Assembly: GCF_000384235.1 (NCBI RefSeq) | Contig: NZ_KB913033.1 | Span: 2,115,164 to 2,179,163, forward strand | Length of the DNA: 64,000 nucleotides | Direction of reading: 5' to 3' | Source of the DNA: Hydrogenovibrio halophilus DSM 15072 | GTDB taxonomy: Bacteria; Pseudomonadota; Gammaproteobacteria; Thiomicrospirales; Thiomicrospiraceae | Shown: positions 12,309 to 55,650 of the stretch, one piece after another | Layout of the letters: every line of letters starts with the position of its first letter | Position numbering within the stretch: the stretch's first letter is position 1 | Notes under the pieces: model-generated | The model's database searches: none | What the model was told of the DNA's origin: nothing | Seen by the model: the letters and a program-made list of their open reading frames with translations, nothing else | Made by a program: the position numbers and the translations under genes

Positions 12309-12625
12309 GTCCCCCAAAACCATCGCCCGGCGGCGCGGTGTCAGAGTGCTGCCTGTTTTTCTGTTTTTTTCACGCTGCCAGCCAGTTAGCTCACGGTCCG
12401 ATAAAAAGCTCATTACGGTGTTTCTGATCTCGTGCAAAGGGCGCCATAAAAAGTTGGCCGGGGGAGAAAAAACCAGCGCACCAAAGTGGCTAAGGAAGGA
12501 AGGTATGGCTGTGCGCTGGGAACACTTGAAATGAAGCAACAACTTCATACGATTTTTATTTTACGGTTTTTTGTTTCTTGTACAAGTGTTGTATATGAAA
12601 AAGATCGAGTTTTGACCAGGCCTGG
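12309..12625. other. intergenic stretch after dbpA
   Basis: No gene. It contains the right copy of the 28-bp inverted repeat (12425-12452) and ends in a palindrome copy at the pxpBC stop. A T-rich tract near 12355-12370 could end dbpA transcription but has no clear hairpin. Confidence 0.5.
12425..12452 (-). repeat. right copy of the 28-bp inverted repeat
   Basis: Inverted partner of 7227-7254 (26/28). The two mismatches are in the outer third; the inner 18 bp are identical. Confidence 0.6.
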
Positions 12626-12626
12626 T
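12615..12626. repeat. palindrome ACCAGGCCTGGT, copy 1
   Basis: Intergenic; perfect symmetry extends outward through TTTTG on the left and CAAAA on the right, giving 22 bp. Its last base is the first of the pxpBC stop codon (read on the minus strand). Confidence 0.9.
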
Positions 12627-46775: not shown

Positions 46776-49196
46776 TCAGGAGTCCTTTTCCAGCTTCAGC
46801 AATTGTTGCTGGGTTTTGAGCAGTGAATCGGGGTTAAGGCTGATGCTGTCGATGCCCAGTTCCATCAGAAAAGCGGCCATCTCGGGGTAGTCGGACGGTG
46901 CCTGACCGCAAAACCCGGTGTGCAGACCGCATTTTCTGGCTTTTTCGATCGCCATCCGAATCATCTGTTTGACGCCGTCCTGGCGTTCGTCAAAACGCCC
47001 GGCGACCTGCCCCGAATCCCGGTCAATGCCCAGCACCAGCTGGGTCAGATCGTTGGAACCGATGGAAATGCCATCAAAGTGGGGCGCGAACTGCTCCATC
47101 ACCAACACATTGTTGGGGATTTCGCACATCATATAGACTTCCAGCCCGTTATGGTGGCGGGTCAATCCGTTTTTGGCCATCACGGCAAGCGCGTCTTCCG
47201 CTTCCTCCACGGTGCGCACAAACGGCAACATCACTTTGAGATTGTTCAGGCCAAAGTCTTCGCGTACGGCTTTGATCGCCGCGCATTCCATGGCAAAGGC
47301 CGGGGCAAAGCTTTCGGATATATAGCGCGCCGCGCCGCGAAAACCGAGCATCGGGTTTTCTTCATGGGGTTCAAAAAAGCGCCCACCCAGCAGAGAGCGA
47401 TATTCATTGGATTTGAAGTCGGACAGCCGCAAAATGACCGGCCGCGGATAAAACGCCGCACACAAAGTGGCAATGCCTTCGCTGAGACGCTGAATGAAAA
47501 ATGCCTCGCCCTGGTCCGAGGCAAACCCGGCCTGCTTGAGCAAGGAGTGGATTTGTTCGCGGGTGTCGGGATCGGTCACGGATTCCGGGTGACACAACGC
47601 CAACGGGTGAATTTTGATCGATTCGTTGATCATGAATTCCATGCGCGCCAGCCCCACGCCCGCGCTGGGCAGAAACTGATGGGCAAAGGCCATGTCCGGG
47701 TTGGCCAGATTCAGCATCAGGTCGGTCTGGGTGGTTTCCAAATCGCTCAGATCGGTTTGCGTTTTTTCATAAGGCTGTTCTCCAGCATAGACTTTGCCGG
47801 TGTCGCCCTCCACGCAGGACACGGTCACTTTCTGCTCATCCAGGCCCATCAGATCGGTGGTCGCCTTGCCACAGCCGACGATGGCCGGAATCCCCAGCTC
47901 ACGCGCGATGATCGCGGCATGGCAGGTGCGTCCACCGCGATTGGTGACAATGGCGGCCGCTTTTTTCATAATCGGTTCCCAATCGGGCGTGGTCATGTCG
48001 GTGACCAGAATGTTGCCCGGTTCGAACCGTTCGATTTCGGCGACGTCTTCAATGATTTTAACCCGGCCCTGAGCCAGACGATCGCCGACAGCGCGGCCCG
48101 TCGTCAGCACTTTGGCGTCCGGCTCGGGGTGAATCTGGAACTGGGTCAGGCAGTGGCGGTTTTGCTGGGAACGCACGGTTTCCGGGCGTGCTTGAACGAT
48201 GTAGAGCTGACCGTCAATGCCGTCCTTGGCCCATTCAATGTCCATGGCCTTGGTCTCATCCTGGTCGGTGCTGTAGTGCTGCTCAATGCGCATCGCAAAA
48301 TCGGTCAATCGCAACACTTCTGCGTCATCGAGGCAATATTGCTGGCGTTCCTCGACCGTGGTCTGAATGTTTTTGACCGGCGATTTTTTCAGCCCGCTGG
48401 TGTCGTAAATCATTTTCAGTTTTTTCGCCCCCAGGTGGCGGCGCAGTACTTGACGGTAGCCCTGTTCAAACGTGGGTTTGTGCACATAAAATTCGTCCGG
48501 GTCCACGGCACCCTGCACTACGTTTTCCCCCAGCCCCCAGGCGCCGGTGACAAACACCACCTGATCAAACCCGTTTTCGGTGTCGAGCGTGAACATGACT
48601 CCGGAGCTGGCCAGATCGGAGCGCACCATTTTCTGCACGCCAATCGACAGACCGACCTGAAAATGGTCAAAGCCTTTGTCGATGCGGTAATGGGTGGCCC
48701 GGTCGGTAAACAGTGAGGCAAAACAGCGTTTGCAGGCTTCCAACAGGGCATCAAACCCTTCGATGTTGAGGTAGGTTTCTTGCTGGCCGGCAAAGCTGGC
48801 ATCGGGCAGGTCTTCGGCTGTGGCCGAACTGCGCACCGCCAGAGTGATGTCGCCTTCAAAGCGTTGATTGAGTTCCAACCAGGCCTGGTGAATTTCGGAT
48901 TGAATCGTGCGCGGCATCTCTGCGTGATAAATGGCTTCGCGAATGGCCTGGGTGCGTTTGCCCAGGTCGGCCACATTGTCGGCGTCCAGCGGGTCCAGCT
49001 GCTCATGCAGAAAGTCCCACAAGTCGTTGTCCGTCAGCAATTGGCGATAGGCTTCGGCAGTGACGGCAAACCCGTCCGGCACCGGGATGCCTTTGGGCGT
49101 CAACGCCTGAAACATTTCCCCCAGCGACGCGTTTTTGCCGCCGACCAGGGGGATGTCATCAATGCCGATTTCATTAAAAAAACGAATGTAGCGCAT
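46776..49196 (-). CDS. ppsA: phosphoenolpyruvate synthase
   Basis: 806 residues from ATG 49196, chosen because AAAAGGAG ends 6 bp upstream (the ATG at 49202 has no spacing). N-terminal ATP-grasp domain (GGKNASLGEM; VRSSATAEDLPDASFAGQQE), central phosphohistidine domain with the catalytic His in GGRTCHAAIIARELG (about 420), and C-terminal PEP/pyruvate domain. It converts pyruvate, ATP and water to PEP, AMP and phosphate: the gluconeogenic entry, useful to an autotroph. A palindromic MITE is inserted directly before its ribosome-binding site. A palindrome copy is in the coding sequence (HQAWLE). Confidence 0.96.
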   Translation of the reverse strand: MRYIRFFNEIGIDDIPLVGGKNASLGEMFQALTPKGIPVPDGFAVTAEAYRQLLTDNDLWDFLHEQLDPLDADNVADLGKRTQAIREAIYHAEMPRTIQSEIHQAWLELNQRFEGDITLAVRSSATAEDLPDASFAGQQETYLNIEGFDALLEACKRCFASLFTDRATHYRIDKGFDHFQVGLSIGVQKMVRSDLASSGVMFTLDTENGFDQVVFVTGAWGLGENVVQGAVDPDEFYVHKPTFEQGYRQVLRRHLGAKKLKMIYDTSGLKKSPVKNIQTTVEERQQYCLDDAEVLRLTDFAMRIEQHYSTDQDETKAMDIEWAKDGIDGQLYIVQARPETVRSQQNRHCLTQFQIHPEPDAKVLTTGRAVGDRLAQGRVKIIEDVAEIERFEPGNILVTDMTTPDWEPIMKKAAAIVTNRGGRTCHAAIIARELGIPAIVGCGKATTDLMGLDEQKVTVSCVEGDTGKVYAGEQPYEKTQTDLSDLETTQTDLMLNLANPDMAFAHQFLPSAGVGLARMEFMINESIKIHPLALCHPESVTDPDTREQIHSLLKQAGFASDQGEAFFIQRLSEGIATLCAAFYPRPVILRLSDFKSNEYRSLLGGRFFEPHEENPMLGFRGAARYISESFAPAFAMECAAIKAVREDFGLNNLKVMLPFVRTVEEAEDALAVMAKNGLTRHHNGLEVYMMCEIPNNVLVMEQFAPHFDGISIGSNDLTQLVLGIDRDSGQVAGRFDERQDGVKQMIRMAIEKARKCGLHTGFCGQAPSDYPEMAAFLMELGIDSISLNPDSLLKTQQQLLKLEKDS
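48878..48889. repeat. palindrome copy 11, inside ppsA
   Basis: Read as CAG-GCC-TGG (Gln-Ala-Trp). Confidence 0.9.
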
Positions 49197-49212
49197 GCCC
49201 ATCTCCTTTTAG

Positions 49213-49374
49213 CACGGAAATTTCATAAATTTGCGCCAAGATCGCTCAGGAACTTGTTTTCACAAGGAAATTTCTGAAGGAGTGTCGTATCAACGATTAC
49301 GACCGACTGAAGAAATATTTCTTGTGGAATCAAGGGGCAAGCGAGATGGTGCATAATTTTATGAATTTTCCGGG
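49213..49374. mobile_element. palindromic MITE, copy 1, upstream of ppsA
   Basis: 162 bp, flanked by TTAG at 49209-49212 and 49375-49378. The termini are inverted (CACGGAAATTTCATAAATTT against the complement of AATTTTATGAATTTTCCGGG). A second inverted pair lies inside (TTTCACAAGGAAATTTC and GAAATATTTCTTGTGGAA), and at the exact centre GTCGTA (49284-49289) and TACGAC (49298-49303) enclose an 8-base loop. The left TTAG runs into the ppsA ribosome-binding site. No transposase gene inside. Copy 2 is at 53996. Confidence 0.8.
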
Positions 49375-49389
49375 TTAGTACAAATAAAC

Positions 49390-49401
49390 ACCAGGCCTGG
49401 T
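49390..49401. repeat. palindrome copy 12, after slyX
   Basis: 19 bp beyond the slyX stop, between slyX and the MITE; flanks ATAAAC and CAATTTT. Confidence 0.9.
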
Positions 49402-49419
49402 CAATTTTGCAGACCAGCG

Positions 49420-49659
49420 TCAGTAGTGTGGTGGTGGCGTTTCCTCGCTGACGGGTTTGATGCCGCTTTGCTCTGATCTTAACGCTTTGAACGCATCCGA
49501 GAGAATATTGATTTGTTTTTGCAACAATTGCAATTGCTGATGTTGCTGACCCACGGTGCGATTGAGGGTGTCAATCGTGTCCTGCTGATAGGCGCAGGTC
49601 ATTTCCAGCTGTTCCAGACGTTGCTGGCCATCGCTCAGTTGCGTGATCTCATTGGCCAT
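49420..49659 (-). CDS. slyX: SlyX family protein
   Basis: 79 residues from ATG 49659 (GAGGA 9 bp upstream; the ATG at 49668 touches that site). A coiled coil (about 5-60, QQRLEQLEMTCAYQQDTIDTLNR) with the family's diagnostic end, PPPHY. Function is unknown in the family. Overlaps the end of the M61 peptidase gene by 25 bp in the same direction. Confidence 0.9.
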   Translation of the reverse strand: MANEITQLSDGQQRLEQLEMTCAYQQDTIDTLNRTVGQQHQQLQLLQKQINILSDAFKALRSEQSGIKPVSEETPPPHY

Positions 49660-51524
49660 GGGGTCCATTCCTCTGATGGTTGATCGTTTGAATCATGATA
49701 ACGCAGACTGACCCGATCCTGTGGCGGAGGCATCAATGTCAAGTCGGTGGTGTGCAGTTCATCACGCCGGAAATAGTGGCAACTCAGGGTGTCGCCCGGT
49801 TGATGGCGTGACAGATAGGTTTCCAACCGGCTCAACGACTCGATTTTGAAGCCATTGAGCGCAATCAGTTCATCGTTGGGGGCCAGTCCGGCGTTGACCG
49901 CGGCCTGTTCCTGCCAGATGTGGCGCACTTTCAGTGTGTGGTGTTCGGTTTGAACAAAGTTGGCACCCAACACCAGTGGGGCTTCAAATGGGGCTTCCAG
50001 ATCGTCCTCGTCTCCCAGATGACCGCCCATGTCTTTCAGATGACTGGGCGCGCGCAGGCGAAACTCGATGCCAACGCTGGCAAACAGGGCTTCAAACGGC
50101 AAATCTTCTGTCCCATCAAGATAGCGGGCAAAAAAGTCGGACAGGTCCAGGCCGCTGACGCGTTCGCACACCTGTTCAATTTCGCCTTCGCCCAGACCAG
50201 CCCCGGTGCGACCGTAATCGCGCCACAGGGCAAGCAGAACGTCGTCCAGACTGAGTTTGCCTTGGGTGTCGCGACGCAGGGTCAAATCCAGTCCCAATGC
50301 GATCAACGCGCCTTTGGTGTAGTAGTTGACGATGGCATTGGGCGCGTTTTCATCCTGCTGATAAAACTTGGTCCAGGTCAGGACGCTGGATTCGGCCACA
50401 CTTTGCTGAAAGCGGCCGGGCAGGCGATACACCTTGGTCATTTCCTTACTCAAACGCGTCAGGTATTGTTCGGCTGACAGGATGCCGGCGCGCCAGAGAA
50501 TGTTCAGGTCATAAAACGAGGTGATGCCTTCAAACCACCAGAGCTGGCGGGTGTAAACCGGTTCGGTCAGGCTGGGGCGCTGGTAAACCTGCGGTTGGAT
50601 GCGTTTGACGTTCCAGGTATGAAAATACTCATGCGAACACAGCTCCAGAAAATTCAGGTAGGCGTCCGGGTAAACGGTTTTTCTTCCCAGATAAGGCAGG
50701 TCGTCGCGGCTGATCATCAAGGCGGTGGAATCCAGATGTTCCAGCCCGCCGTAATCACTGGCGGTGACCATGACCTGGAACAGGTAGCGCTCAATCGGCC
50801 AGGGCGTGCCGAACAACGTGAGTTCGGTCTCGCAAATGCGGGTCAGATCGGCCTTCAATTGCTCGGTGTCGACACGGTCCCATTCGATCTTTCCGGTAAA
50901 CACGGCCTGATGGGCAATGCCGCAGGCTTCGAATTCCAGGCACTGGAAAGTGCCGATTTCGACCGGGTACTCAATCAGATCCCAGTAGTTTCGGGCCTGG
51001 AAACGCCCGAAGCCCTGTGCATTGGTGGCCAGAGCGGGCAGGGTGGTGGCCACTTGCCAGTCAGACTGAAACGCCTGTTGGCCCGGTTCCAGTATCACCT
51101 CTACCGGTTGGTCGCGCTGACCTTCCACCGCCAGAAACACACTGGTGCCATTGAAAAAGGCATGGGTCGCGTCGAAATGGGCACCGCGCACCGACAAATC
51201 CCAGGCATAGACCTGATAACGGACCTCGACCGGCCCCTCGGTGGGTTCGATCTGCCAATGGGCGGCGTCCAGCGGTGTGATCGCAAGTGGACGGGCATCG
51301 TGTGTCCGGGCGGACAGTCGATTGAGGTGTTTGGCAAAATCCCGGATCAGGTAACTGCCGGGAATCCACTTGGGCAAGGCAAGTGTCTGACCGGCCGGGT
51401 CGGGACGCTCAATGGTCAGCGTCACCTCAAACACATGGGCATGCGGGTCGGTCAGCTTGACCCGGTATTGGATTGAAAACGCATCGGCGATGGCCGCTTG
51501 AGGACGTGAGGCAAATAAGGTCAT
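49635..51524 (-). CDS. M61-family metallopeptidase with PDZ domain
   Basis: 629 residues from ATG 51524 (GGAGGA 12 bp upstream; GTG 51557 is also open). N-terminal beta domain (about 15-190), gluzincin catalytic domain with HEYFHTWNVKR (zinc His-His and the Glu between; about 298-308) and a C-terminal PDZ domain (about 520-610: NAGLAPNDELIALNGFKIES). Relatives are glycyl aminopeptidases. No signal peptide is obvious, so it may be cytoplasmic. Cotranscribed with slyX, divergent from gltX. Confidence 0.88.
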   Translation of the reverse strand: MTLFASRPQAAIADAFSIQYRVKLTDPHAHVFEVTLTIERPDPAGQTLALPKWIPGSYLIRDFAKHLNRLSARTHDARPLAITPLDAAHWQIEPTEGPVEVRYQVYAWDLSVRGAHFDATHAFFNGTSVFLAVEGQRDQPVEVILEPGQQAFQSDWQVATTLPALATNAQGFGRFQARNYWDLIEYPVEIGTFQCLEFEACGIAHQAVFTGKIEWDRVDTEQLKADLTRICETELTLFGTPWPIERYLFQVMVTASDYGGLEHLDSTALMISRDDLPYLGRKTVYPDAYLNFLELCSHEYFHTWNVKRIQPQVYQRPSLTEPVYTRQLWWFEGITSFYDLNILWRAGILSAEQYLTRLSKEMTKVYRLPGRFQQSVAESSVLTWTKFYQQDENAPNAIVNYYTKGALIALGLDLTLRRDTQGKLSLDDVLLALWRDYGRTGAGLGEGEIEQVCERVSGLDLSDFFARYLDGTEDLPFEALFASVGIEFRLRAPSHLKDMGGHLGDEDDLEAPFEAPLVLGANFVQTEHHTLKVRHIWQEQAAVNAGLAPNDELIALNGFKIESLSRLETYLSRHQPGDTLSCHYFRRDELHTTDLTLMPPPQDRVSLRYHDSNDQPSEEWTPWPMRSRN

Positions 51525-51658
51525 GGAAAAGCGATTTCCTCCGGTTTCAGTGGTCACTCACGGGAAGCGAGTGGAATTGGTTATAATGTCCCCCATTTTA
51601 CGCCATTTGCCTGCGCAAATGGTATCGGACTCATGAGTTTACGATGAAGGAGACGCTT

Positions 51659-53074
51659 GTGGTAAAAACGCGATTCGCCCCCAGCCCGACTGGCTTTCTG
51701 CATATCGGTGGTGTGCGCACTGCCTTGTTTTCCTGGCTGTATGCCCGCCAGCAGAAAGGGCAGTTTGTGCTGCGTATCGAAGACACCGACCGCGAACGCT
51801 CGACCCAGGCGTCGGTCGATGCGATCATGGATGGCATGCATTGGCTGGGACTGGATTATGACGAAGGTCCGATTTATCAGACCCAGCGTTTTGATCGTTA
51901 CAAAGCCGTGATCGATCAGCTTCTGGCCGAGGGCAAAGCCTATTACTGTTACGCCAGTCAGGAAGAACTGGACCAGATGCGTGAGGCGCAGCGCGAACGG
52001 GGCGAAAAACCGCGCTATGACGGCCGTTATCGTGACTTTACCGGCACACCGCCGCAAGGGGTCAAGCCGGTCATTCGCTTCAAAAACCCGCAGGAAGGCA
52101 GTGTGGTGATCGAGGATCTGGTCAAAGGGCCGATCACCGTGGCCAACAGCGAACTGGATGACCTGATCATTGCCCGGTCGGATGGCACGCCCACCTACAA
52201 CCTGACCGTGGTGGTCGATGACTGGGACATGGGCATGACCCATGTGATTCGCGGCGATGACCACATCAACAACACCCCACGTCAGATCAATCTGTATCAG
52301 GCACTGAATGCGCCCGTGCCAAAGTTTGCCCACATTCCGATGGTTCTGGGCAGTGACGGGGCGCGCTTGTCCAAGCGTCACGGCGCGGTGTCGGTGCTGC
52401 AATACAAGGAAGAAGGGTTTTTGCCCGAAGCCTTGTTGAATTATCTGGTCCGGCTGGGCTGGTCACATGGCGATCAGGAAATCTTCACACTGGAAGAGAT
52501 GGTGGCGCATTTTTCACTGGAAGCGGTCAATACGGCGCCGTCCACGTTCAACGAAGAAAAACTGCTGTGGATCAATCAGCAACACATCCAGACCACGCCC
52601 CTGAGCAACTTAACCGCCAACCTGAAGCCGTTCATGGACGAGCGAGGCCTGGATACCGAACAGGGCCCATCGCTGGCAGCGGTGGCCGATCTGTTGCGCG
52701 AACGGGCGCGCACACTGGTGGAAATGGCCGACTCAGCGCGTTATTTTTACAGTGAGTTTGACGAGTTTGATCCCGTCGCCACCAAAAAGCACCTGCGTCC
52801 AGTTGCGGAAACCCCGTTGCACACCCTTCGCGACAAACTGGCCCGGCTTGAAGACTGGTCGGCCAAACCGATTCATGAATGCGTTCAGACCACAGCGGCG
52901 GAGCTGGAAGTGGGCATGGGCAAGGTGGGCATGCCATTCCGGGTGGCGATCACAGGCGGGGGACAGTCGCCGTCGATTGACGCCACCGCGGAACTGATTG
53001 GCCAGTCGCGCTGTCTGGCGCGCATGGATCGGGCTCTGGCCGTGATTGAGGTGCGCAAGTCGCAGAACGGCTGA
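51659..53074 (+). CDS. gltX: glutamyl-tRNA synthetase
   Basis: 471 residues. I choose GTG 51659 because AAGGAG at 51647-51652 lies 6 bp upstream and the product then begins [18 protein letters not shown]; the ATG at 51644 would cover that site. Class I signatures: HIGG (HIGH box, about 13-16) and LSKRHG (KMSKS box, about 240). It charges tRNA-Glu; two tRNA-Glu genes lie just downstream. No C-x-C zinc site (the knuckle near residue 100-130 reads YCYASQEEL), as in some bacterial enzymes. Confidence 0.95.
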
Positions 53075-53182
53075 AAGGGCCTGGCATTTTGTGCGCATCG
53101 GGAAGGGGGTGAAACCGTAAGCATTTTTGGTTGCGTCAGACCCAGCGCACAGGATTCATTGTTAAAAAATTGTAAAAATGGC

Positions 53183-53210
53183 TTGACCGCCGCAGTCAGT
53201 TCCTTATAAT
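53183..53210 (+). promoter_or_regulatory. promoter of the tRNA-Ala/Glu/Gly operon
   Basis: TTGACC, 16-bp spacer, TATAAT, then ACGCACCC. The -10 region and discriminator match the tRNA-Val promoter at 36683 almost base for base (CCTTATAATACGC). Confidence 0.85.
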
Positions 53211-53229
53211 ACGCACCCATCAGCTCAGG

Positions 53230-53305
53230 GGGGCTATAGCTCAGCTGGGAGAGCGCAACACTGGCAGTGTTGAGGTCAGCGGTTCGATCCCGCTTAGCTC
53301 CACCA
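53230..53305 (+). tRNA. tRNA-Ala (GGC)
   Basis: 76 nt with CCA. Acceptor strands GGGGCTA and TAGCTCC with one G-T pair; anticodon loop CTGGCAG (GGC). Confidence 0.95.
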
Positions 53306-53345
53306 TTTTACTTAGGCCAAATGGTTATTCGAGTTGATATTTTGT

Positions 53346-53421
53346 GTCCCGTTCGTCTAGAGGCCTAGGACACCGCCCTTTCACGGCGGTAACAGGGGTT
53401 CGACTCCCCTACGGGACGCCA
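53346..53421 (+). tRNA. tRNA-Glu (UUC), copy 1
   Basis: 76 nt with CCA. Acceptor strands GTCCCGT and ACGGGAC; anticodon loop CTTTCAC (TTC) on a CCGCC/GGCGG stem. Confidence 0.96.
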
Positions 53422-53423
53422 TT

Positions 53424-53498
53424 GCGGGAATAGCTCAGCGGTAGAGCACAACCTTGCCAAGGTTGGGGTCGCGAGTTCGAACCTCGTTTCCCGCTCCA
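53424..53498 (+). tRNA. tRNA-Gly (GCC)
   Basis: 75 nt with CCA. Acceptor strands GCGGGAA and TTCCCGC; anticodon loop TTGCCAA (GCC). It starts 2 bp after tRNA-Glu. Confidence 0.96.
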
Positions 53499-53555
53499 GA
53501 TTCAAGATTGTTTGATCGCCTTCCTCTAGGCCGGATATCAAGCCTTCAAACAATC

Positions 53556-53580
53556 GCCTGCTTCGGCAGGCATTTTTTTT
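53556..53580 (+). terminator. tRNA operon terminator
   Basis: GCCTGC-TTCG-GCAGGC followed by ATTTTTTTT. It separates the first three tRNAs from the second tRNA-Glu. Confidence 0.88.
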
Positions 53581-53618
53581 GTCTGAATGATTTTTTTGTT
53601 TTGGCAAATCGCGACAAC

Positions 53619-53694
53619 GTCCCGTTCGTCTAGAGGCCTAGGACACTGCCCTTTCACGGCGGCAACAGGGGTTCGACTCCCCTACGGGACGCCA
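53619..53694 (+). tRNA. tRNA-Glu (UUC), copy 2
   Basis: 76 nt with CCA. Differs from copy 1 at two places: the anticodon stem reads CTGCC/GGCGG (a T-G wobble) and the base after it is C instead of T. It lies after a terminator, so it depends on read-through or its own promoter. Confidence 0.95.
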
Positions 53695-53701
53695 CATTAT
53701 C

Positions 53702-53737
53702 AACCCGCCAAACGCGTTTGTGTCTGGCGGGTTTTTT
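53702..53737 (+). terminator. terminator after the second tRNA-Glu
   Basis: AACCCGCCA and TGGCGGGTT pair around a 12-base loop and are followed by a T run. Confidence 0.9.
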
Positions 53738-53995
53738 CTTTCTGCTTCCCTGACGTGCACGCTTTTTTACCAGGCCTGGTAAGTTTTGGTGCCCCGACCG
53801 ACCTGTGGCGAATATTTTTACAGAGAAATTGCAGCAAATGGGTGTTGTCATGTGTGTTTTCCAAACAGGCGCTATCCTTGCTTTATGGCTGGCATGCCGG
53901 TGTCATCTCTATGCCATCTGTGGCTGGCATGATACCCTGTGCAACAAACAAAACACTCAGCGAACGCTTGATGCAAGCGGCAAGCTTTGCTTTAG
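53738..53995. other. intergenic stretch before the second MITE
   Basis: About 260 bp with palindrome copy 13 (53769). A short plus-strand open frame at 53805-54011 runs into the MITE and is not convincing. Confidence 0.45.
53769..53780. repeat. palindrome copy 13
   Basis: 32 bp beyond the tRNA-Glu terminator; flanks TTTTTT and AAG. Confidence 0.9.
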
Positions 53996-54158
53996 CCCGG
54001 AAATTTCATAAATTTGCGCCAATATCGCGCAGGCAATTGGTTTCACAAGGAAATTTCTGAAGGAGTGTCGTATCAACGATTACGACCGACTGAAGAAATA
54101 TTTCTTGTGGAATCAAGGGGCAAGCGAGATGGTGCATAATTTTTATGAATTTTTCGGG
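53996..54158. mobile_element. palindromic MITE, copy 2, upstream of gnd
   Basis: 163 bp, flanked by TTAG at 53992-53995 and 54159-54162. It matches copy 1 (49213) with about nine differences by hand alignment, most of them near the left arm. The outer 8 bp begin CCCGGAAA and end TTTTCGGG, better inverted repeats than in copy 1. The right end lies 37 bp before the gnd start, and TAGAAT at 54160-54165 (formed by the right flank) could serve as a -10 box. Confidence 0.8.
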
Positions 54159-54195
54159 TTAGAATAGGCTTTTACTTTTCAACAGGAGCAGACAG

Positions 54196-55650
54196 ATGTC
54201 TCAGGCAGAGATAGGCGTCATCGGACTGGCCGTCATGGGCCAGAATCTGGTATTGAACATGGCCGATCACGGTTTCAAGGTCGCGGTATATAACCGTTCT
54301 TACGACAAAACCGATGCCTTTGTCCGGCAGCGGGTGGAAGACCGCCCAATTGTCGGCGCTCAGTCTTTGACGGAACTGGTGGATCAACTGGCCAGACCGC
54401 GCAAAATCATGCTGATGGTCAAGGCCGGGGACGTGGTGGATCGATTGATCGATGACCTGATCCCGCTGCTGTCTGAAGGCGACATCATCATCGATGGTGG
54501 CAACTCGCTCTATACCGATTCCACCCGCCGCACCCAGCGTTTGAAAGCCGAGGGCCTGCATTTTATCGGCACCGGCGTGTCCGGTGGCGAAGAAGGGGCG
54601 CGAACCGGTCCTTCGATCATGCCGGGCGGAGACGTCGCGGCTTGGCCGGCGGTCAAACCCATTTTTCAAGCGATTTCTGCGAAATCCGATGGTCAGCCTT
54701 GCTGTGACTGGGTAGGGCCGGAAGGCGCTGGTCATTACGTCAAAATGGTGCACAACGGCATTGAGTATGGCGACATGCAATTGATCGCCGAGGCGTATCA
54801 TTTGATGCGTCAGGGACTGGGGCTGTCGGTGGATGCGATTCAGGCGGTGTTTGCCGACTGGAACCAAGGCGTTCTGGACTCTTATTTGATTGAAATCACC
54901 GCTGAGCTGCTGACCTTTAAAGATGACGACGGCGAGCCGCTGGTGGACAAAATTCTGGACGCGGCCGGGCAGAAGGGCACGGGCAAATGGACCGGCATCA
55001 GTTCGCTGGAATTGGGGGTGCCGGTGACATTGATCACCGAGTCGGTGTATGCCCGTTGCCTGTCGGCTCTGAAATCGGAACGCGAAGAGGCGGCTCAGCG
55101 CTATCCGGCCAGTGAGGTGCCTCCGTTGAGCGAATCGGAAACCCGGGCCATGATTGCGGCGCTGCATGACGCGCTCTATGCGTCCAAGATCATGTCTTAT
55201 GCTCAGGGTTATATGCTGATGCGCGAAGCGGCCAGCGAGTTTGACTGGGACCTGAACTACGGCGGCATTGCGCTGATGTGGCGGGGCGGGTGCATCATTC
55301 GCAGCCGTTTTCTGGAAAACATCAAACAGGCTTACGATCAGAACCCGAGTTTGAACAACCTGTTGCAGGCCGAATTTTTCGAGCAGGCGGTCAAGCAGTC
55401 CGAATCCAACTGGCGCAAAGCCGTGGCCTTTGCGGTCACGCAGGGACTGCCGGTGCCGGCCATGAGCTCGGCGCTGGCCTTTTTTGATGGCTATCGCAGT
55501 GCGCGCCTGCCAGCCAACCTGTTGCAGGCCCAGCGCGATTATTTCGGGGCCCACACCTATGAGCGCATCGATGCGCCCAGAGGGGAACGTTTTCATACCG
55601 ACTGGATTCATTCGGGCGGTCATGCCCAATCCGGCAGTTACGAGGTGTAA
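54196..55650 (+). CDS. gnd: 6-phosphogluconate dehydrogenase
   Basis: 484 residues. NADP-binding GLAVMGQNLVLNMADHG (about 9-25), substrate-binding GVSGGEEGARTGPSIMPGG (about 130-148) and catalytic Lys in HYVKMVHNGIEYGDMQLI (about 185). It decarboxylates 6-phosphogluconate to ribulose-5-phosphate with NADPH. AGGAG lies 7 bp before the ATG. First gene of gnd-zwf-pgl, the whole oxidative pentose-phosphate branch in reverse order of the pathway. The promoter region carries a MITE. Confidence 0.96.
   Translation: MSQAEIGVIGLAVMGQNLVLNMADHGFKVAVYNRSYDKTDAFVRQRVEDRPIVGAQSLTELVDQLARPRKIMLMVKAGDVVDRLIDDLIPLLSEGDIIIDGGNSLYTDSTRRTQRLKAEGLHFIGTGVSGGEEGARTGPSIMPGGDVAAWPAVKPIFQAISAKSDGQPCCDWVGPEGAGHYVKMVHNGIEYGDMQLIAEAYHLMRQGLGLSVDAIQAVFADWNQGVLDSYLIEITAELLTFKDDDGEPLVDKILDAAGQKGTGKWTGISSLELGVPVTLITESVYARCLSALKSEREEAAQRYPASEVPPLSESETRAMIAALHDALYASKIMSYAQGYMLMREAASEFDWDLNYGGIALMWRGGCIIRSRFLENIKQAYDQNPSLNNLLQAEFFEQAVKQSESNWRKAVAFAVTQGLPVPAMSSALAFFDGYRSARLPANLLQAQRDYFGAHTYERIDAPRGERFHTDWIHSGGHAQSGSYEV

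Follow-up and report, generated by a model that had tools for sequence, protein, structure and literature searches.

The window analysed here, a stretch of 64,000 nucleotides from the genome of Hydrogenovibrio halophilus DSM 15072, a bacterium of a sulfur-oxidising type (G000 in our numbering; a single contig of 2,356,686 bp), holds two closely similar copies of a short self-complementary element, one in the leader of ppsA and the other in the leader of gnd. An earlier note made from the sequence had described them as copies of a miniature inverted-repeat transposable element (MITE) and attributed them to the IS5 group. The features concerned, in window positions, are as follows.

46776..49202, minus strand: ppsA, phosphoenolpyruvate synthase, downstream of copy 1
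49209..49212: left target-site duplication of copy 1, TTAG
49213..49374, plus strand (the well-folding strand): MITE copy 1, subfamily A, 162 nt, in the ppsA leader and antisense to ppsA
49284..49303, plus strand: apical stem of copy 1, GTCGTA / 8-nt loop / TACGAC
49375..49378: right target-site duplication of copy 1, TTAG
53992..53995: left target-site duplication of copy 2, TTAG
53996..54158, plus strand (the well-folding strand): MITE copy 2, subfamily A, 163 nt, in the gnd leader and in the direction of gnd
54067..54086, plus strand: apical stem of copy 2, GTCGTA / 8-nt loop / TACGAC
54159..54162: right target-site duplication of copy 2, TTAG
54196..55650, plus strand: gnd, decarboxylating 6-phosphogluconate dehydrogenase, downstream of copy 2

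The two copies are 95% identical, and both carry the 8-base centre TCAACGAT, read from the sequence, inside the GTCGTA/TACGAC stem. The description given in the earlier note, i.e., two elements of 162 and 163 bp that are about 95% alike, with TTAG at all four flanks and the same stem about an 8-base central loop, holds in the points checked. By eye we also read the surroundings as it did, with copy 1 immediately upstream of the ppsA Shine-Dalgarno sequence and the gnd ATG 37 nt beyond the end of copy 2. Its claim that the elements fold on themselves over their entire length is borne out by the predicted single-strand RNA folds, which reach -73.0 kcal/mol for copy 1 and -79.9 kcal/mol for copy 2 (z about -11 and 0 of 200 shuffles as good for each); folded as DNA, copy 1 reaches -35.3 kcal/mol (z -7.7). 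For gnd the well-folding strand is the sense strand, for ppsA the antisense strand. A scan of positions 48900-54500 placed no promoter-like site within the elements (two found in the region, 3.2 expected), and it gave nine terminator-like matches against 6.8 expected, one of them within copy 2 (54013-54033).

The element belongs to a large family. Blastn gives 54 matches in the genome, fragments and opposite strands counted, and a covariance model based on an alignment of 56 copies, from three genera, gives 45, which correspond to 40 distinct places after removal of five opposite-strand duplicates. Across the order (62 genomes of 7 genera) the model locates about 115 places in 11 genomes of three genera, with, opposite-strand duplicates removed throughout, 37 copies in G071, 12 in G072, six each in G009 and G005, five in G041, four in G002, two in G006 and single copies in G044, G053 and G064; the further copies that the earlier note had proposed to look for in this genome and its relatives are thus at hand. 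The element has inverted ends, is short, lacks a transposase gene and is present at 40 places, which are the features of a MITE. Uninterrupted copies of the genus (n = 42) are mostly 161 bp long (range 161-163 nt), and the genus has two subfamilies, GGAAA, which includes both window copies, and GAATGT. Plasmids and phages gave no blastn match to the element. An exact 28-base core pattern had no occurrence in named genomes and viral contigs, and this pattern is too strict, as it also missed the G005 copies, which differ in the core; the negative result therefore carries little weight. No description of IS1380-derived bacterial MITEs, or of repeats in these genera, was found among the open-licence papers listed. 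At locus L060 (G009:C1:446214-446306) lies a 93-bp form with an internal deletion, both ends kept and TTAA on its flanks.

The mobility of the family is well supported. Of the 40 own copies, 39 entered the flank analysis, and 20 of these lie between identical 4-mers (the decayed L055 was left out of flank and context counts). Permuting left against right flanks leads one to expect 5.6, and none of 20,000 permutations gave so high a number. YTAR fits 27 of the 39 left flanks and 27 of the 39 right flanks, and where both flanks fit, 17 of 21 pairs are identical against 5.8 expected, so that the 4-bp TTAG/YTAR target duplication assumed in the earlier note stands. Moreover, genome G005, inferred to be Thiomicrospira sp. 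WB1, is collinear with the window over the ppsA-gnd region and has neither of the insertions. The comparison with empty sites suggested in the earlier note therefore succeeded in part: at gnd the window flanks, once joined, can be aligned with G005 over the junction (TTTGCTTTA[G/C]AAT), while at ppsA a single TTAG cannot be read because the leader has diverged there. In G002 and G009 (L223, L224) the same ppsA spot before the Shine-Dalgarno sequence is occupied by a copy of the other subfamily in reversed orientation, which is best read as a separate insertion. None of the 39 copies overlaps a gene called by a simple script by more than 20 bp. The gaps that hold them are divergent in 17 cases, co-directional in 17, convergent in three and uncalled in two; the excess of divergent over convergent gaps has p 0.003 with gap lengths ignored and with the same simple gene calls. 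Within co-directional gaps, 12 elements are oriented with the genes and five against them (p 0.14).

The ends of the element, CCCG..TTTCA (CCCGRAWRTTTCA), recur at IS1380 transposons. The ends TAGCCCGGATATTTCATAAACCC, CCCGAATATTTCATAAA and CTAACCCGAATATTTCATAAA adjoin NF033539/PF13701 transposase fragments in relatives; the fragments of this kind are L147-L150 and L171, L147 being that of our own genome. PF13701 detected IS1380 remnants in our genome and in G071 (two of the nine genomes first searched) and scored above its cut-off in 4 of the 62 genomes of the order. In G071 the pieces have CCCGGATATTTCATAAACCC as their end on the 3' side of the transposase (two pieces) and CCCGAATATTTCATAAA on its 5' side, with ATAG, CTAA and TTAT as neighbouring 4-mers; a piece in G059 begins CTAA-CCCGAATATTTCATAAA, and the remnant in our genome has the degenerate end TTTAG-CCCAAATTTTTCATAAACCC. 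The four transposase pieces tested carry the NCBIfam name IS1380 and pass the Pfam cut-off, each staying below the NCBIfam full-length cut-off, as expected of fragments. Beyond the order, tblastn found IS1380 relatives in 510 plasmid records of other bacteria. Among 12 plasmid-borne IS1380 elements that we examined for their ends, giving no credit to equal flanks, 10 have ends of the CCCG/CCTG..TTTCA type or CCCGNATTTCTCA, e.g., CCCGGATATTTCAC in Acidovorax, CCTGAATATTTCAC/CCCGCATATTTCAC in ISPosp7 and CCCGGATTTCTCAT in ISPa33 and ISMaq4; the other two, which represent one element, show no repeat at the threshold. CTAG stands on both sides of seven of these 10, and in three, two of which share the same site, the flanks are one base apart. 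The CTAG flanks fit YTAR, and direct duplication itself is seen in the TTAG and TTAA cases of the MITE. The only near-full-length PF13701 gene of the group, L172 in G060, was considered as the parent and rejected, no such end (up to 3 mismatches) being present in 3,008 bases. The decayed IS1380 transposase piece of our genome (L147, G000:C1:1273072-1273428) lies, by eye, next to putative tRNA-like sequences and a putative small toxin-antitoxin-like gene pair.

The second line of evidence concerns the fold. Insert-bearing copies were excluded from the fold counts, L033 and L040 were dropped as near-duplicates of L032 and L037, and L159, L161a, L167 and L169 were dropped before the three-genus alignment. 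The 56 copies share a consensus of 46 pairs with 97.5% of the cells paired. Changes on both sides of a pair occur at 20 of the 46 pairs and in 176 cells, against 11.7 and 46.5 in shuffles and 6-8 and 6-32 with slid partners, and whole stems differ between genera yet pair, e.g., CACAAGGAAATTT versus CCCAGTGCTTTTT. Of the 56 copies, 53 have retained a tandem G·A loop. At another loop, 47 copies read RA/GA, six copies from three genera read GC/AA, with both sides changed, and the other three differ from both. All 40 uninterrupted copies of the genus fold better on the plus strand in the window sense (mean -71.6 versus -45.3 kcal/mol), a preference shared by the covariance model (192 versus 71 bits at one place). 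The copies of G071, G041 and G044 were first turned to their better-folding strand, and homology in the alignment subsequently gave the same orientation; the G072 copies were oriented by the model, and 11 of 12 fold better on that strand. In a strand-neutral register, from which the decayed L237 and L238 were dropped, G·U outnumbers A·C by 498 to 92 over 66 copies, with an excess of G·U in 65, and the four lineage consensuses hold 3, 8, 8 and 10 G·U against one A·C each. A cruciform as the cause would predict no such asymmetry, because it needs both strands. The predicted fold is thus conserved on one strand in three genera through compensatory changes.

At consensus-paired positions, the ratio of G·U to A·C is 21:2 among shared variants, present in at least two copies of a lineage, and 36:27 among private variants, present in one copy (Fisher p 0.004); in the first version of this test the numbers were 17 versus 1 for shared and 10 versus 14 for private variants. 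The strand bias in the predicted pairs is therefore strongest in variants that have spread to several copies. This pattern suggests selection in the spreading lineage, and that folding of an RNA, or of one DNA strand, may help the element to spread.

Probably, the two copies belong to a family of MITEs, characteristic of the Thiomicrospira/Hydrogenovibrio group, that is, or formerly was, moved in trans by an IS1380-family transposase, and whose one-strand fold would have been favoured during spread. The transposase would act on the element in trans by cut-and-paste of double-stranded DNA, the folded plus strand, most likely as RNA in read-through transcripts, would be favoured while the family spreads, and a copy once fixed would decay nearly freely. 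We read the copies as selfish MITEs with YTAR as their insertion target, in many cases close to gene starts, and with a one-strand fold that matters during spread; the altered expression of ppsA and gnd considered in the earlier note is conjectural.

Several observations weigh against this interpretation. Among the PF13701 matches in the 62 genomes there is no IS1380 element that is both complete and bounded by these ends; the group yields fragments only, and our own genome one decayed piece, so that the family may no longer be mobile. In the seven CTAG-flanked plasmid elements a duplication is inseparable from a terminal repeat because CTAG is palindromic. With the RNAalifold pair set and the lineages pooled, G·U to A·C is 18:8 for shared and 15:13 for private variants (p 0.28). 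The private types split 10:0 (G·U to A·C) in G071 alone and 26:27 in the other lineages, which speaks against private change being unbiased. The copies are related, and cell counts thus overstate the number of independent events. Single-stranded DNA would show a similar preference for one strand through the G·T wobble, and a role of RNA is thus unproven.

The weaker shared-to-private contrast obtained with the RNAalifold pair set would also suit an origin of the strand asymmetry in mutation bias or in template switching between the arms, instead of selection on the folded strand. Even in the absence of selection, compensatory changes can arise when quasi-palindromes are corrected, and mutation linked to transcription can make C to T and A to G more frequent on one of the strands. 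However, private changes taken over all lineages have no clear bias, G071 alone excepted, the shared G·U types come from C to T changes as well as from A to G changes, and correction between arms would erase the G·A internal loop that nearly all copies have kept. We consider this explanation doubtful, though it deserves serious attention.

A host-kept structured regulatory RNA, i.e., a leader or a transcript processed by RNase III, that was spread by a transposase incidentally and acts as a functional control at ppsA and gnd, is an unlikely account. It would agree with a strand-specific conserved fold with compensatory changes, with the position of the copies near gene starts in mostly divergent and co-directional gaps, and with the independent-looking insertion that G002 and G009 have at this ppsA spot. 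Against it, the overall strand bias of private changes is small, both sites are empty in the relative G005, and the good fold is antisense to ppsA here, the G002/G009 copy being reversed. Rfam has no match to the element either: at gathering scores the window gives transfer RNAs (tRNAs) only, and the region of copy 2 gives none up to E 1.

The fold on one strand could also be expected if the element transposed as single-stranded DNA, as proposed for the REPIN/RAYT system, in which REPINs have compensatory changes and predicted single-stranded DNA hairpins (PMC3116915). The Y1 transposase domain PF01797 is, however, absent from the copy-bearing genomes G000, G005, G006 and G009 (it is present in the copy-bearing G002, G041, G044, G053, G064, G071 and G072), the element has a 4-bp target duplication, and its orientation shows no bias by replication fork (17 of 40, the contig start being assumed as the origin), all of which makes this mode very improbable. 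The IS5-group origin proposed in the earlier note is scarcely credible, for although YTAR is the target of IS5-group transposases, the ends match IS1380 elements, and the full IS5-type element with the same ends that the note had proposed to look for did not appear, PF01609 being absent from our genome and found in one of 11 genus genomes, the copy-free G003 (other IS5-type models were not searched).

The element is itself a target of insertion. A 36-bp insert with the core CTCGACTTACCCCTTCGGGCGTCGAG interrupts 11 element copies, eight in our genome and three in G005, among the scanned loci L001-L060 (L011, L017, L018, L026, L039, L045, L051-L054 and L056). It occupies three positions within the element, in five, four and two copies; in its own direction the target is TTT^C at two of them and TTG^C at the third, and a shorter similar insert is present in the outer arm. 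Outside the element the hairpin core occurs in 6 of 11 genus genomes, with some tandem arrays of 36-bp period, and in 69 stretches of named genomes, which belong to Thiomicrospira, Hydrogenovibrio, Thiomicrorhabdus or an unclassified Thiotrichales metagenome-assembled genome. The search pattern left three bases open, the variable stem pair and the variable loop base, with the rest fixed. Among 74 cores, the stem pair is A-T in 56, C-G in 11, G-C in four and A·C in three, and the loop is TTCG in 62, TACG in seven and TGCG in five; UNCG is a stable RNA loop. A RAYT as the mover of the hairpin was rejected, PF01797 being absent from the hairpin-bearing G000 and G005 and present in the hairpin-free G003 and G007. 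At L064-L132 (e.g., L088, L110 and L073) the hairpin is embedded in longer Thiomicrorhabdus repeats, some of them followed by GCTAATAGCTNGCTATTAGC-like palindromes.

We tentatively hypothesize that the IS1380-mobilised MITE could also be a miniature RNA element, the plus strand of which must fold for it to multiply, and that the second, 36-bp hairpin with its UNCG loop could jump into its TTT^C sites, giving nested mobile hairpins. To our knowledge, the inner hairpin would then be among the smallest mobile units.

Two further observations concern the window. The tRNA genes at 53346-53421 and 53619-53694, in an array upstream of gnd, are 97% alike. The 12-bp palindrome ACCAGGCCTGGT occurs at 17 exact and two one-mismatch places in the 64 kb (0.15 expected), for example at 12615-12626, 49390-49401 and 53769-53780, and also near elements at several loci and in G005; it is possibly a methylation, binding or uptake-like motif.

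With these results, a bacterial MITE gains a likely parent family in IS1380, a prokaryotic relative of piggyBac. Whether the strong folding of MITEs is a by-product of the palindrome or is selected becomes testable here, since the two strands can be distinguished. The nested hairpin, with its aligned filled and empty sites, lets the movement of very short units be studied in a natural setting. The very small mobile repeats of cyanobacteria, associated with Elhai (2008), are reportedly tiny, dispersed and located inside other repeats, and the nested 36-bp hairpin resembles them in these respects.

Among known dispersed repeats, ERIC, YPAL, NEMIS and RUP resemble the element in their length of 100-200 bp, their repetition, their highly paired transcripts (predicted in our case) and their target duplication (PMC2229807). 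According to Table 1 of that review, ERIC, NEMIS and RUP have 5'-TA-3' as termini and the duplications of YPAL vary; RUP is assigned to IS630-Spn1, whereas the element combines YTAR with IS1380; this comparison is one of descriptions, not of sequences. With the REPINs the element has in common that it is a dispersed hairpin with compensatory changes (PMC3116915), and it differs by the 4-bp duplication, the ends of a DDE-type insertion sequence and the absence of a Y1 transposase from its own genome. IS1380 is called a distant relative of piggyBac, which duplicates TTAA (PMC10140906). The 4-bp duplication is common to both; unlike the eukaryotic piggyBac, the element is bacterial and has YTAR instead of TTAA alone. 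The nearest counterpart is the IS1380 family itself (ISPosp7, ISPa33, ISMaq4; NF033539, PF13701), with which the element shares CCCG..TTTCA ends, the closest being CCCGGATATTTCAC of L244 and those of the Thiomicrospira-group fragments; the CTAG-type flanks of that family fit YTAR. In contrast to these transposons, it has 161 bp, no transposase gene and a broader YTAR target, and the ends are all that the two have in common.

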